From Amyelois transitella (lineage: Eukaryota > Arthropoda > Insecta > Lepidoptera > Pyralidae), in NCBI RefSeq assembly GCF_032362555.1, contig NC_083526.1:4732001-4796000 (forward strand): 64,000 bases of DNA. The letters are read 5' to 3'. Positions 3,089 to 17,432 of the stretch are shown here, one piece after another. Positions within the stretch are counted from its first letter, which is position 1. Each line of letters opens with the position of its first letter. The position numbers were made by a program, and so were the translations under genes. The notes below the pieces were generated by a model. The model was not told the origin of the DNA. It did no database searches and saw only the letters and a program-made list of their open reading frames with translations.

Positions 3089-5176
3089 TTACCGCCTTCT
3101 AGCATTTAAGTTCCGTCCGTACCCAGAGTGGCCGTAGCCCCCCACGTCTTCATGAGCGGTTGAGTGTGAATGGCTGTGGCTGTAGATGGGTTTGGATACG
3201 ATTTCGTAGGTCGTCGACTTCTGGCCGCTGGATAATGATTTGATGCCGATGATCGCGGAGAGGAGTAGGGACATCAAGGCAGTCATGAGAGCTTTTCCTG
3301 CTAGAAGAGCCAATGCGCCAAGACCTAGGGACATGAGTGTGCCTGCGAAAAGAAATAAAGGGTTAAAAAAATATAGCTACGTCTCTTTCCCTTACGGGGT
3401 AGACAGAGCTAACAATCTTGTAAAGACTGACAGGTCACATCCGGCTTTATGGTTTATTGAAGGAAATGAGATTCAAATAATAACAGGTTAGCTAGCTCAA
3501 GCATAATCATAATCAATTATTCAAGGAATAAATGATTATGATTAAGTCCGCCAATTGTGCTTAACATTTGTATTTTGTATATTAAAGTTGAAATAAATAA
3601 ATAAATGTAGTGAGTGACAGGTTGGTAGCCCATCATATAAAAAAGTAGGTTAGGTTAGGTTTACTAGTAGAACTGATAGTGTAATATTTAGTGAGTATAT
3701 ACGTACATACATACATATAATTACGTCTACATTCCTTGCTTATATGATGATGGAATTGAGATTCAAATAGTGACGGGTGCCTAGCCCATTTCCTACAAGA
3801 AGAATCCCAAGTTCTTTTAGAGACAGAGAGCAGACCTATTCTTAAGTACCAGGAACCACACGGCTCAGTATAAGTAGGTACCTAAGTAAAAAGTGTCAAT
3901 TTGCACGTGTTAATAAACTGTGAAGAAAAATACGCCTTCCCGTAGAAAATAGAGATATTAGGGCGTAGTATGTCATTTTATGCTTTACATAGTATGCATT
4001 ATAGAAATGTGTGTCATCAAAAATTGTAGTTATTATGCTCTGGTTGGTAGTGTGGCATTTTTGTAAGATCTTATCACTAACTAGCTTTTGCATACTGTTT
4101 CGTTTTCTACCGTAAATCCTATAGCTACAGTACTTTATAAAGGTTAAGTCCTCTGTCCTTGTTTAAAGTCCTAGATATTATCGAAAGACACATCAACAAA
4201 CACACTTTCCGATAAACTCGTAACTTGTTCTTCTTTATTAGAGATTTAAAGGAAATAATGTATTCATTGTGTAGGCACTTTGTTTACCATGACGAGGATT
4301 CAGTATTCATCGATATTAGTAATAGGTAGGTAGATGATTAAAATTTTGTATTCAAAATAAATAATTAAATAACAATAATGTTAATGATTATTAAAGGGGC
4401 TCTCATACAAAAAAATGTAATGCTTTTTTATAAATTTTTTGTTCGATTTTGATAAACAGGTAGAAATGTGAATATGAAAAATAAATATTTATGTATCAAA
4501 CGTGATGATGGTACGAAAACCTTCGTGCGCTAGTGCGACTCGCACTTGGCCGGTTTTTTTTTTAATTTTGCACAAACTGATGGCTTTTGTTTCAACGTGT
4601 CCCGTTTCATTCCGAAAATGAAAGTATTTTGCTTATATATTGGTGAATTATACTGATTTATATCAAAGACATACCTTTGAATAACATTCCCATTGCCAAA
4701 AGTCCTCCGATACCCCCCTTTTTGCCCCCAAGACCTCCTTTTCCTCTAGCTTCACTGACCAAAGCCCTAGCTTCTTCAGTGGAGTTTTCATCCAAAAGTC
4801 TCAATTTCACTGTATGACTCTCCAAATAATTGCCTAGTTTGTACAACAAGTACTTATCCAATCTATCTTCTGGCTTATTCAAAGACCTCACTAGTTCAGA
4901 AGCGAATTCCTCAGTCTTACTCTTATTCTCTAAACTTTCCTTCACTAAGCTTACTCCTGGAAGAAGCCTTAATTCGTCTTTAGCACTGAGTTTGTCCAGA
5001 ATTGCTATAGCTTCGATTTTCAAACAGGTAGGACTAAATATCCCATTACTGCAATCCTTTCCCATCGACCGCGCGGCGACTTCCAGAGTGTGTTCATTTT
5101 TATTCGAATCGCGAATTTCAGGACTTGGCAGCGCAAACGCCGAAGCCGTTAACACAAAAACCAATAATTTATACAT
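3089..5176 (-). CDS. Osiris-family protein A (two exons, DUF1676)
   Basis: Two coding exons, 5176-4675 and 3342-3089, give a 251-residue protein. The donor reads AAAG|GTATGT (intron starts at 4674) and the acceptor TTTTCGCAG (ends at 3343); the intron is phase 1 and splits a glycine codon, giving LFK|GTLMSLG. Residues 1-16 form a signal peptide (MYKLLVFVLTASAFA). Cys42 and Cys51 sit in DCSNGIFSPTCLK, the paired-cysteine segment of Osiris proteins. Next come an amphipathic region, a Gly/Lys-rich stretch (about 145-155), a hydrophobic segment (about 155-205) and a tail with alternating His-Ser, Tyr-Gly-His and a final Arg triplet. Known of the family: Osiris proteins act in secretory and endosomal membranes of cuticle-forming epithelia. 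The ATG is the first after the TATA box at 5249. Without splicing the frame stops five codons past the donor. Which numbered Osiris gene this is cannot be said. Confidence 0.9.
3375..3495 (-). mobile_element. M1 repeat, 3' half, in gene A intron
   Basis: cttacggggtagacagagc to gattcaaataataacagg; diverged, lies 33 bases inside the intron acceptor side of gene A. Confidence 0.7.
3525..3607 (+). mobile_element. LINE 3' end with ATAA tail, in gene A intron
   Basis: aagtccgccaattgtgctta, ttgtattttgtatattaaag, aataaataaataaat. Confidence 0.65.
3701..3863 (-). mobile_element. M1 repeat in gene A intron, internally deleted
   Basis: tacatacatacat tail, then tagcccattt, aagaagaatcccaagtt and ggaaccacacggc; the stem region is missing. 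Confidence 0.7.
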
Positions 5177-5248
5177 TTTTATACACTAAGTACACGTGTG
5201 TACTGGAACAAATACAGTTACAATTGATAACGTGATTGAAGATCCCAG

Positions 5249-5256
5249 CTTTTATA
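5249..5256 (-). promoter_or_regulatory. TATA box of gene A
   Basis: TATAAAAG on the minus strand, 73 bases before the ATG at 5176, so transcription probably starts near 5225. A CACGTG E-box lies at 5193-5198 in the presumed leader. Confidence 0.6.
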
Positions 5257-5259
5257 TGT

Positions 5260-6162
5260 CTCACCATAGAGTCTTATGTCAATTATATTTTCATAGAAGA
5301 CTGATCGCAAAAAGTTGCAACAAATACGTGGGAAACTGAGCCATATGATGTATGCCATTGGGTATTCTTTACCTCGTTTTTTGTAGCAATTGTAATCGTG
5401 TATGATTTCGTTTCAGTTTTGTATGTTTTTTGTACTTTTAAGTGTAATGATTTTATATTTTCATGCAAATTTTGAAAGGTATTACAAATTTAGTTATCAG
5501 TCACTCAGGAAAACGGGGTTTCGTAGAATTGCTATTAAGATTACCTGGCATGTAGGTATATTTGTTTTAAGAACTAACAATAATCTGTTTTTTGATGGCA
5601 AAGTAACTAATATATTACTGTAAATGTTTAATATATTGTCAACAGTATTATGAGGCACAAGGCAAATCTTTTATTTGTAATGGATATCAGGGTATAACAT
5701 ACCGTGCTAGATCCTCAAATGTTTTTCTTTTTTATAAAAATTATATTAAGATTATAATTTTATTTATAGAGAAATGTTTACACTAGTTTGTGGGATTAAA
5801 AATTAAAAATTCTATGAATGTTTATAGTACTACAGAATTTATTACAATAGTACTAGATACTTAGATATCATAGAAATTTATATACAAATAATTTGTATAA
5901 TATAAATATTGGCTGTGCGGTTTCCGGGCACAATGACACTCTTTCTAGATCTATATCTGAGGACGTGAATACTCGTAGTACCTAAATGAAGCCCTACGGG
6001 GCTTAGTGCAATAGAAAATATTCATAGAAACCTGGCCAAATAATTTCACAACATTCACAAGATAAAAAAAGCTCTTGTATGTAGAAAAACGAAAAATTTA
6101 ATATTTTCTCTGCTTAACTTAAAGCAAGGCCGGTAAGAAAATTATGTCCTAACAAGAGGCCG
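5260..6162. other. Spacer between promoter of A and exon B, no exon seen
   Basis: Read on the minus strand for a GT/AG exon with a hydrophobic segment or a Tyr/Gly/His tail; none found. AT-rich, few repeats. Confidence 0.6.
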
Positions 6163-6335
6163 CCCGTGACTTCGTCCGCGTGGAATCATTCCCGCGGGGA
6201 GTCCGGGATAACTAGGTCTTCAGCTACCCACATACCAAATTTCATCGTAATCGGTTCAGTAGATTTTGCGTGAAAGAGTAACAATCATCCATACTGACAT
6301 ACTCACAAACTTTCGCATTTATAATATTAGTAGGA
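6163..6335 (-). mobile_element. RTE-like 3'-end fragment between exons A and B
   Basis: cccgtgacttcgtccgcgtg gaatc, aatttcatcgtaatcggttc, tttcgcatttataatattag: a block common in Lepidoptera. It occupies the space where a terminal exon of B would be expected. Confidence 0.6.
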
Positions 6336-6427
6336 AATTCATACAATAAAACCGAATTACTTTATTAAACGTGTATTATAATTTTGTGTTAATTCACAAT
6401 GACCTCGAGCTCTATAAAATTACTCAC

Positions 6428-6905
6428 CTTTCATCATCATAGCCATAGCAATCAATCCCCCCATACCACCCTTCTTGCCTCCCATCGACAAAGGATTCTT
6501 CCCTCGGGCTTCGCCAATCATACTCCTTGCTTCTTCAGCTGCCCCATCATCTAAAAGTCTCAATTTCACTGCATGAGTATCCAGAAATGTCCCGACTTGA
6601 TAAAGCAGAAACTTATCAAGTCTTTCAACTGAATCCGATGGCAGAGATTTGGCTAATTCATCAGCTACTGCTCCAGTTTTCAAGTCACTTTTGTCTTTAA
6701 TAAGACTAACACCAGGTATGAAAATCACTTCGTCTCTGTTATTAAGCTTCTCGAATAAAGACACTACTCCAATTTTTAGACATGTTGGACTGAATACTCC
6801 GTTTGTGCAATCCATCTTCGAAATTGTGTTCGATGCAGATTCAGGGTCAGGGTTTGGCAGAGCAAGGGCACATGATAATAACCCGAGAATTAGATTTATG
6901 TACAT
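6428..6905 (-). CDS. Osiris-family first exon B (no own 3' exon seen)
   Basis: One exon codes 159 residues plus one base: signal peptide (1-16, MYINLILGLLSCALA), Cys33 and Cys42 in DCTNGVFSPTCLK, then a region clearly paralogous to exon 1 of gene A (GVSLIK, ERLDKFLLYQ, VKLRLLDD, EARGK) and a Gly/Met-rich start of the hydrophobic segment. It ends at AAAG|GTGAGT, the same phase-1 Lys/Gly split as gene A; the frame stops two codons into the intron. I read 5190-6420 on the minus strand and found no exon with the expected hydrophobic segment and tail. Joined to 3342-3089 it would give a 243-residue protein. So it is either an alternative first exon of gene A, or a tandem duplicate that lost its terminal exon; the RTE-like insert at 6163-6335 could mark such damage. 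The coding part itself is intact, which favours use. Confidence 0.8.
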
Positions 6906-6972
6906 TTTTGAAGCTATGCGTCCACTGTGGTCAGTCAGCTATAAGACTATGTTAATCCATAGTGGTGACACC

Positions 6973-6980
6973 CTTTTATA
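6973..6980 (-). promoter_or_regulatory. TATA box of first exon B
   Basis: TATAAAAG on the minus strand, 68 bases before the ATG at 6905; almost the same spacing as at gene A. It argues that exon B has its own promoter rather than being an internal exon. Confidence 0.55.
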
Positions 6981-14450: not shown

Positions 14451-17432
14451 TAGAATAGAATAGAATAGAATAGATTTATTTTCAAAATTGGATACAAGGT
14501 ATCACTTATTGACGTCACATAACTTAAATCTAATTATAACTACTACCGCTTCCAAAGCGCATGTGTAGAAGAAGCGGCGGAACAAACTACACTGCAGCAT
14601 TTTCATAGGACGTCAATTTACAAATATAGATCTCTTAAATCTAAATCGTGGACGAATGCACATTGTCTACATTAAAAAACATGTATGAATGTAGAACTGA
14701 TTATGTCAATACGAATATTTCGTCAAATAAAATAAATATAAAATAAAATATGTACATACTGTACAAATTATGTCCAGATCATGTCAAAAATACACAAGCA
14801 TTTAAGAGGCCATTATGTCCAGCTCGGGCCACACATGTTTATCATTAATATAATCATCCGTGCTGTAATAGGCTTTCCTACAAAGCTCAACTTTAATATA
14901 CTGTTTGAATTTTCTATCATTCATTTCAAGAACACTTTTTGGTAATTTATTATAAAATCTTATACAATTAATAAGAAATGATTTCCCTACCTTAGCCAGC
15001 CGATGTGCTGGGATCGACAACTTGTAATTGTTCCGCAGTGATCTACTAGTACATTCACCTACTTTTTTGAAAGAGTCTAAGTTTTTCCTAACATGCATGA
15101 TGTTATCGAATATGTATTGGGAGGGCAAAGTTAAAATATTTAGGTTTTTGAAAAAATCTCTAAGGGAATCTCTTTGTTTAAGACCGTAGATATATCGAAT
15201 TGCCCTTTTTTGTAAAATGAAAATAGTTTGTATGTCTGCTGCTGATCCCCAAAGCAGTAGACCATATGACATTAAACTATGAAAATAACTAAAATATACT
15301 AGCTTAGCAGTTGCCACATCCGTCAAATGCCTAATACGACGAATAGCGTATGCTGCAGAACTAAGCCTTTTAGAAAGTTTTAAAATGTGAGCATGCCATT
15401 TCAAATTTGAATCTAATGTTATTCCTAAGAAAGTAGTACTATCAACAAAATCTAATCTTTTACTACTTATACTAATATCCACATTTGCCTGCCGCACATT
15501 GGGAAGTGTAAACTTAATGCATTGGGTCTTATTTGCATTTAACAGTAAGTTGTTGATTGTAAACCAGTTAGAGATGGCGGCTAAAGTGCTATTCACATCA
15601 TCACAGATTTCGCTACGGCGGTTCATTTTAAAAATTAGTGACGTATCATCTGCAAACAACACGATGCCAGTCTGTTTCTCAATCATGCAAGGCAGGTCGT
15701 TGATATATATCAGAAAGAGAAAAGGTCCCAAAATGGAACCTTGCGGTACCCCAATTTTTACCGTCGCTCCTTTCGATTTTGTATTATTTAAATCTACCGT
15801 CTGTAATCTATCACTAAGATATGATTTAATTAGTTCAACGGCAGCAGTATCGAACCCGTAATGAGCGAGCTTGAGCAGAAGAGTTCTATGATCTACGCAA
15901 TCAAATGCTTTGGTCAGATCGCAAAACACTCCGATGGCATCCTGTGAGTCTTCCCATGCATTGAGAATATGAGTGACAAGAGCCACACCTGCATCTGTTG
16001 TACATTTCCCCTCAGTAAAGCCGTATTGCTGACTATGAAATAATTTATTAGACTTAAAGTAACGCTGCATTTGATTAAGCATGATTCTCTCGAACACCTT
16101 GCTCAAAATTGGTAAAATTGAGATTGGTCTATAATTACCAGGATCTGATTTTTCACCTTTCTTGAATAATGGAATTAGTTTACTATACTTCATTAAATTT
16201 GGAAATATCCCTTGGTCAACACAATTATTGAATATATAAGCTAAGTCCCCAGCTATAATATTTATAATATGACATATCACAACAGCCGACATACCCCAAT
16301 AATCCTCAGACTTTTTCAGATTAAGTTCTTTAAAGGTATTAATAATGTCAGTAGGGTCAATATTTAAGAATTTAAATTTGGAACTGCAAATGCTGACATT
16401 ATTTTTAAGTAGAATTTCAGCTTCATTAGGGCATGAGTCAATATTAGAAGTTAATTCCAACGGTATATTTGTAAAAAAATGTTCAAATAAATTTACTATT
16501 TCTGTTGTAGAGGTAATTTTCCTATCATTAAATTTAATTTCATTAATATTTTCTTTAAAATTACTTCTACCAGTTTCCTTGTTTATAACACTCCAGGTTT
16601 CCTTTGTTTTGTTAGGAGCATTACTTATTTTGTTTTTAATGAACAAAGATTTTGCATGTAGACATACTTTTTTAAAAATTTTTGAATAATTCCTAACATG
16701 GTCTACGAAGCCGCTTTCAAATCGATACTGTTTTTGGGCATATAAATCGTACAAAGTCTTTCTACTTTTGTAGATGCCAACAGTAGCCCATTCATTGAAT
16801 TTAAAGTTATTATTGCATTTCCGTTTCTTTTGTATAAATGTTTTAGAGTACGCGTCTGAAATGGTAGTAAATAACTTATTATAATGACCATTAGGATCGC
16901 TGCCCGTGTAAGTTACTGCGCAAATTTTATTTTCTAAAGAACTTGTAAATTTATTGATTTTATGGGCTGTGATAGGTCTGCACATAATTAATCCATCACG
17001 TGTACTACGTTTAGTGGAAAAGGTAACTAATTGACCGCAATGATCAGAGGGTAATTTACTAAATACATTTTTATTATTTGGTTTTTGTTCACTAAAAACA
17101 TTATCAATACATTTAGCAGATGTGGCAGTGAAGCGGGTTGGTTCCAAGAAGGCATTATCTAAGTTAAAACATTTAAATAGGTTAAGAAACTGTATTGTCA
17201 CTGTGGAGCTAACTAATATGTCAATGTTAAAATCACCGCAAACAATTACTTTCTTATTACTTTTTGTCGCTACTATTAGAACTTCCTCCATTACATTCAG
17301 GAAATCCATAATACTACTGTTGGGTGGACTATAAATACAAATAACAATGTGTTCCTCAAGCTCGGCACAAGATACCTCAACACAGCGCTCAAGAGAAAGT
17401 CTGACTATGTCATGGCGCTCCTTACTATATAT
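14451..17432 (-). mobile_element. 5'-truncated CR1-like non-LTR retrotransposon
   Basis: Runs on the minus strand from a truncated endonuclease domain (17432) through reverse transcriptase to a 3' untranslated region (14801-14475) and a tail of TTCTA units (14474-14451). The 3' region shares blocks with fragments at 10379-10500 and 34083-34275 (cgtcacataactta-like start, AGAAGAAGCGG, CTGCAGCATTTTC). It sits inside an M1 copy whose halves are at 14400-14450 and 17452-17624. About 19 extra bases (17433-17451) lie at the 5' junction. Confidence 0.88.
14802..17432 (-). CDS. LINE ORF2 fragment: endonuclease C-part and reverse transcriptase
   Basis: One uninterrupted frame of 876 codons; the first internal ATG is at 17309 (835 residues from there). 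Numbering from that Met: CGDFNID (24-30) and SDH (88-90) are motifs of the apurinic-type endonuclease; YRPISILP (393-400), DLTKAFD (464-470), GVPQGSILGP (520-529) and FADDTS (552-557, catalytic Asp pair) belong to reverse transcriptase; a conserved C-terminal extension follows (FLGITLDSNLKWHAHI, LLLWGSA). The pattern resembles the CR1/Daphne group; clade is inference. The lack of stops or frameshifts suggests a fairly recent insertion. The first part of the endonuclease and any ORF1 are missing, so the copy cannot be autonomous. Confidence 0.9.
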   Translation of the reverse strand: MYSKERHDIVRLSLERCVEVSCAELEEHIVICIYSPPNSSIMDFLNVMEEVLIVATKSNKKVIVCGDFNIDILVSSTVTIQFLNLFKCFNLDNAFLEPTRFTATSAKCIDNVFSEQKPNNKNVFSKLPSDHCGQLVTFSTKRSTRDGLIMCRPITAHKINKFTSSLENKICAVTYTGSDPNGHYNKLFTTISDAYSKTFIQKKRKCNNNFKFNEWATVGIYKSRKTLYDLYAQKQYRFESGFVDHVRNYSKIFKKVCLHAKSLFIKNKISNAPNKTKETWSVINKETGRSNFKENINEIKFNDRKITSTTEIVNLFEHFFTNIPLELTSNIDSCPNEAEILLKNNVSICSSKFKFLNIDPTDIINTFKELNLKKSEDYWGMSAVVICHIINIIAGDLAYIFNNCVDQGIFPNLMKYSKLIPLFKKGEKSDPGNYRPISILPILSKVFERIMLNQMQRYFKSNKLFHSQQYGFTEGKCTTDAGVALVTHILNAWEDSQDAIGVFCDLTKAFDCVDHRTLLLKLAHYGFDTAAVELIKSYLSDRLQTVDLNNTKSKGATVKIGVPQGSILGPFLFLIYINDLPCMIEKQTGIVLFADDTSLIFKMNRRSEICDDVNSTLAAISNWFTINNLLLNANKTQCIKFTLPNVRQANVDISISSKRLDFVDSTTFLGITLDSNLKWHAHILKLSKRLSSAAYAIRRIRHLTDVATAKLVYFSYFHSLMSYGLLLWGSAADIQTIFILQKRAIRYIYGLKQRDSLRDFFKNLNILTLPSQYIFDNIMHVRKNLDSFKKVGECTSRSLRNNYKLSIPAHRLAKVGKSFLINCIRFYNKLPKSVLEMNDRKFKQYIKVELCRKAYYSTDDYINDKHVWPELDIMAS

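Follow-up and report, generated by a model that had tools for sequence, protein, structure and literature searches.

A candidate promoter-choice switch between two first exons of an Osi9-like Osiris gene in Amyelois transitella

In a 64,000-nt stretch of the Amyelois transitella genome, which we refer to as the window (positions 4732001-4796000 of contig 22, NC_083526.1; genome of 327 Mb in 33 contigs), two Osiris first exons lie in tandem upstream of one terminal exon. The sequence suggests that they are probably alternative, promoter-linked first exons of a single Osi9-like gene, both using that terminal exon. Osiris genes are insect cuticle genes. Going forward, we refer to the distal first exon as D, the proximal first exon as P, and the terminal exon as T. 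Coordinates are those of the window, with negative positions lying before its start, and a slash marks the splice site. The features needed here are as follows.

6973-6980, minus strand: TATAAAAG box of D, 75 nt upstream of the ATG
6428-6905, minus strand: first coding exon D (distal), with hydrophobic N-terminus, C-x8-C and luminal half; donor AAG/GTGAGT, phase 1
6138-6345, no strand assigned: dispersed repeat of ~190 bp in the D-T intron, 80-90 nt behind the D donor
5249-5256, minus strand: TATAAAAG box of P, 80 nt upstream of the ATG
5203-5204, minus strand: AG resembling a weak acceptor, within the leader of P (2.06 bits, equalled or exceeded by ~6% of AGs)
4675-5176, minus strand: first coding exon P (proximal), with hydrophobic N-terminus, C-x8-C and luminal half; donor AAG/GTATGT, phase 1
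3089-3342, minus strand: terminal exon T, with membrane segment, His/Ser/Gly-rich tail and stop; acceptor TTTCTTTTCGCAG/G, 8.08 bits
-2422 to -4022 (C22:4727978-4729578, outside the window), minus strand: gene X with terminal exon TX, same junction type

Both D and P exit in phase 1, the phase that T takes. Conceptual translation of the joined exons gives 243 aa for D+T and 251 aa for P+T (25.7 and 27.0 kDa before processing), with no internal stops and a common stop codon. This agrees with a preliminary description of this DNA, which had given the same coordinates, phase and donors, the in-frame fit of T to both first exons, and a Cys-x8-Cys pair in each; the pair reads CTNGVFSPTC in D and CSNGIFSPTC in P. 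On inspection of the translation both N-termini are hydrophobic, and we regard them as putative signal peptides. The same description had the first exons encoding the start of the hydrophobic segment, and here the picture changes. By hydropathy in windows of 19 residues, the membrane stretch starts at residue 161 in D-T and 164 in P-T, and exon lengths place the junction at residue 160 (D-T) or 168 (P-T). Because the hydropathy start lies essentially at the junction, nearly the whole membrane segment is supplied by T.

D and P are intact Osiris (DUF1676) first exons. Against PF07898 (profile length 170, curated cut-off 24.3 bits), the D and P exons alone score 50.1 and 63.5 bits and cover positions 1-133; the joined D-T and P-T score 100.2 and 111.6 bits and cover positions 1-169 of 170. 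The profile match, the cysteine pair, the hydrophobic segment and the location in the Osiris cluster all place them in the family, and 36 of 40 PF07898 matches listed for the genome are on the contig that carries D, P and T. The locus is Osi9-like and a putative ortholog of Osi9. Beyond this genome, no relatives were found among 23 pattern stretches from viral contigs and 120 from genome contigs, and the PDB held no convincing relative (two matches, E 0.49 and 0.92, to proteins unrelated by name).

Several other features occur in the surroundings. Minus-strand Osiris terminal-exon matches are present at 27312-27115, 38276-38148, 42385-42227, 55584-55453, and 64031-63873; two of these are weak (14.9 and 20.9 bits). 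At approximately -6152 to -9564, outside the window, there is a possible divergent multi-exon Osiris-like gene with weak profile scores (17.1 and 10.7 bits). An 876-residue open frame at 14805-17432 on the minus strand resembles, by eye, a non-LTR retrotransposon endonuclease/reverse transcriptase.

Each first exon has a promoter-like box of its own. The preliminary description had placed a TATA-like box about 70 bases upstream of each, and we find TATAAAAG upstream of the ATGs, at 75 nt in D and 80 nt in P. Counting both strands, the 264 kb contain the motif 37 times, or ~1 per 14 kb of strand; from these 37 occurrences, the chance of finding it in a given 100-nt promoter is ~0.7%, and in two, ~5 in 100,000. 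Given this rarity, boxes at both places are unlikely to have arisen by chance. Comparison of the D and P 5' flanks and introns gave no significant similarity (best E 0.11 for flanks, 0.64 for introns).

The exon count points in the same direction as the structure. Among the matches listed for the 327-Mb genome, first exons of the D/P junction type number three (D, P and X), while terminal exons number two (T and TX). N-terminal partial PF07898 matches extend to profile position 134 in D, 141 in P (read-through) and 134 in X; the others listed end at 117 or before, except C22:5078484 (131). We rejected this last candidate first exon (C22:5078484-5078876, profile 2-131), which has no KG junction end. 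C-terminal partial matches start at 134 in T and 135 in TX, and the others among the 40 matches listed start at 120 or before. Peptide searches of the genome gave the same result. The D peptide has six matches listed, those of the junction type being D, P and X only, and the T peptide has 11, with the junction type restricted to T and TX and the rest being other Osiris-type exons or weak. Gene X, a third paralog, lies ~9 kb downstream of D, just beyond the window. Its first exon (-2422 to -2992) and TX (-3739 to -4022) encode a clean 284-residue protein; the cysteine spacing is C-x7-C instead of C-x8-C, and the exon end, MMMKG, is identical in D and X. Since X has TX as its own terminal exon, three first exons and two terminal exons leave one terminal exon for D and P together. 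Splicing of D to TX would be in phase, and we set it aside because T comes first and has the stronger acceptor (8.08 vs 6.44 bits).

A terminal-exon profile was built from 12 Osiris terminal exons of the cluster. With the full profile, T reaches 88.9 bits and TX 77.2 bits, and a leave-out version constructed without these two exons scores them at 50.4 and 28.8 bits. Between D and P (6427-5190, six frames), neither version detects an Osiris-like terminal exon or remnant: the best scores are 2.2 bits (full) and 1.2 bits (leave-out), the latter compared with 1.8-4.2 bits in 20 shuffles scored with the leave-out profile only. The preliminary description had named a separate terminal exon in the 5190-6420 interval as a finding that would speak against sharing; by profile, no Osiris-like one is present. 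From TX to 27.1 kb, no terminal-exon match other than T exceeds 4.7 bits (scan of 264 kb; 8,622 open stretches, minimum length 20 residues), and no second copy of T appears across the 33 contigs among the matches listed. By profile and peptide searches, then, T is the one terminal exon found from D as far as the next gene, which upholds the earlier view of a single visible terminal exon that fits both first exons. As far as Osiris-like exons are concerned, the locus thus has the single common downstream exon of a variable-first-exon arrangement.

We scored splice signals with approximate frequency matrices, so that the scores have relative value only. The D donor is consensus-perfect; at 8.52 bits it ranks in the top 0.035% when all 28,719 GTs of the cluster are compared. 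The P donor scores 5.41 bits (top 0.5%) and the X donor 6.42 bits. Of the 169 AGs in 6400-3089, none scores higher than the T acceptor (8.08 bits), which also ranks in the top 0.007% when all 27,673 AGs of the 264 kb are considered. The second-best acceptor in 6400-3089 (4.89 bits) is within T itself. AG scoring revealed no strong acceptor upstream of P. The acceptor-like AG in the leader of P, already pointed out in the preliminary description, would indeed bring D to a stop after five codons, and its score is unremarkable; we therefore rejected P as an internal exon of D transcripts through the AG at 5203. Within P, an AG at 4957 (2.19 bits) lies in frame and would join D to the remainder of that exon; it was judged to be at chance level.

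In the proposed mechanism, each first exon would be driven by a TATA promoter of its own and would supply a distinct N-terminus and luminal half. Whichever promoter is used, the transcript would be spliced to the single T, which contributes the membrane segment and tail. In a D transcript, P would be spliced out with the intron, skipped because it lacks a competent 3' splice site and because the D donor is stronger. Promoter choice would then swap the luminal half and keep the membrane half constant. Sharing of T by promoter choice had been proposed in the preliminary description, and its structural side stands: there is no second Osiris-like terminal exon or relic, the D donor is perfect, the T acceptor is by far the strongest, and the flanks share no significant similarity. 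Transcription from both promoters, the 6428/3342 junction and differential use of the two promoters are what we infer from these signals. With somewhat more reserve, we favor a fuller account in which the locus is a promoter-choice switch Osiris gene that may combine two luminal halves of ancient divergence, each under an independent promoter, with a tissue-specific choice between them, D having been kept as a pure first exon after it lost its terminal exon.

D and P are homologous tandem first exons, as in variable-first-exon clusters, and their divergence is old. Identical residues make up 80 of 155 aligned positions, with dS ~2.5 (near saturation) and dN 0.38. Synonymous divergence near saturation together with this dN indicates that purifying selection acted on D and P through most of their long separation. 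Under neutrality, and with assumed indel rates, K of ~0.04-0.08 would suffice for a 95% probability that the frame or donor of D is disrupted. The frame and the donor are both intact, which suggests that D was functional until recently or still is.

This bears on the possibility that D was recently orphaned, its own terminal exon having been deleted in this lineage, perhaps around the repeat at 6345-6138, so that D is now silent or non-functional and any joining to T accidental. The cited passages on Bombyx report five Osi9 copies (PMC3755909). If those copies are complete genes, D would once have had a terminal exon and then lost it, and sharing would be either a rescue or an accident. The dispersed repeat 80-90 nt behind the D donor and the lack of any Osiris-like terminal exon in the D-P interval would fit such a deletion. 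Against this, 159 codons and a consensus-perfect donor have survived the decay expected by K ~0.04-0.08. The repeat has at least 40 other copies at 82-91% identity (best 40 of 2,512 first-look candidates genome-wide), and because the scored copies are 9-18% different from 6138-6345, the insertion is probably not very recent. Overall, we consider recent orphaning unlikely. An assembly error that dropped or collapsed a D terminal exon is very improbable, given 0 N in 264 kb and no second T copy in the 33 contigs among the matches listed.

It is also improbable, more so than orphaning, that the D-P interval contains an unrecognized terminal exon belonging to D, either short or unlike those of Osiris genes. 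The interval does contain 54 AGs, from which the longest D tail is 51 residues, and the AGs at 5607 and 5714 give hydrophobic tails of 36 and 28 residues that contain a 19-residue Kyte-Doolittle window above 1.6 (1.88 and 1.82, respectively, vs 1.97 for T) and are not Osiris-like. However, the best AG of the interval, at 6110, scores 3.23 bits, and 5607 and 5714 are outside the 15 best acceptors and hence score at most 0.94 bits, compared with 8.08 bits for T. The profile score in this interval is not above that of shuffles, and a hydrophobic stretch probably arises easily by chance in AT-rich sequence. Slightly less probable again is that D forms a single-exon gene, with a poly(A) site near 6345 in the intron, its product being a 161-residue secreted luminal protein (...MMMKGE) that has no membrane segment. 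An in-frame stop directly after the donor and an AATAAA at 6366, ~55 nt past the D read-through stop, would permit this. Yet AATAAA and ATTAAA together occur ~3.5 times per kb locally, which makes a nearby one unremarkable, and in X, a gene with a terminal exon of its own, an AATAAA likewise follows the read-through stop by ~60 nt. In U1 protection, a 5' splice site suppresses a nearby poly(A) site, and the same effect would be predicted here, given the perfect 5' splice site immediately upstream.

If the shared-terminal-exon reading is correct, Osiris, whose members are described as separate genes in the literature consulted here, would include a variable-first-exon arrangement like that of UGT1. 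The locus would be a natural swap experiment, able to show whether tissue-specific function resides in the luminal or in the membrane/tail half of an Osiris protein. A further implication would be that a duplicate in tandem can persist as nothing but a first exon, and that Osi9 copy counts in moths may mix genes with alternative first exons. The type of arrangement is already known; within Osiris it appears new as far as our literature searches show, which found no report of an Osiris alternative first exon among papers available without subscription.

The closest known counterparts of the locus are the Osi9 copies of other Lepidoptera. In the cited passages, a study of Bombyx full-length cDNAs reports five copies of Bmosi9, situated between Bmosi7 and Bmosi8, and describes Bmosi3-Bmosi12 as wing-specific apart from osi9-3 (epidermis) and Bmosi10 (no hit) (PMC3755909). 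The Osi9 duplications are placed in the ancestral lepidopteran lineage in the portion of the study cited here (PMC3284338). BmOsi9a is given as a middle-silk-gland protein, observed at 26 kDa (PMC7084798, as cited in part), so the Osi9 copies do vary by tissue. Lepidopteran Osi9 copies, whose multiplication two of these sources describe (PMC3284338, PMC3755909), resemble D and P in being tandem paralogs in the main Osiris cluster, with the cysteine pair, DUF1676, membrane segment and tail. The tandem copies within the cluster here agree with the Bombyx report, and given the copies described there, paralogy at this locus is ordinary. The difference is that the cited passages report gene copies, five in Bombyx, whereas here there are two first exons and one terminal exon.

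Clustered protocadherins offer a parallel in which a large first exon for the extracellular half is picked by promoter choice; unlike D, P and T, they have many such exons, a stochastic choice in neurons, and several constant exons. They are named beside UGT1 as a tandem variable-exon cluster in the passage cited (PMC1885805). UGT1 is itself a variable-first-exon cluster (PMC3325998), and in UGT1 (UGT1A), as predicted here for D and P, alternative first exons are joined to a common downstream part. UGT1 differs in that it encodes vertebrate enzymes and has a set of common exons, whereas the Amyelois locus has two variable first exons and one common terminal exon.
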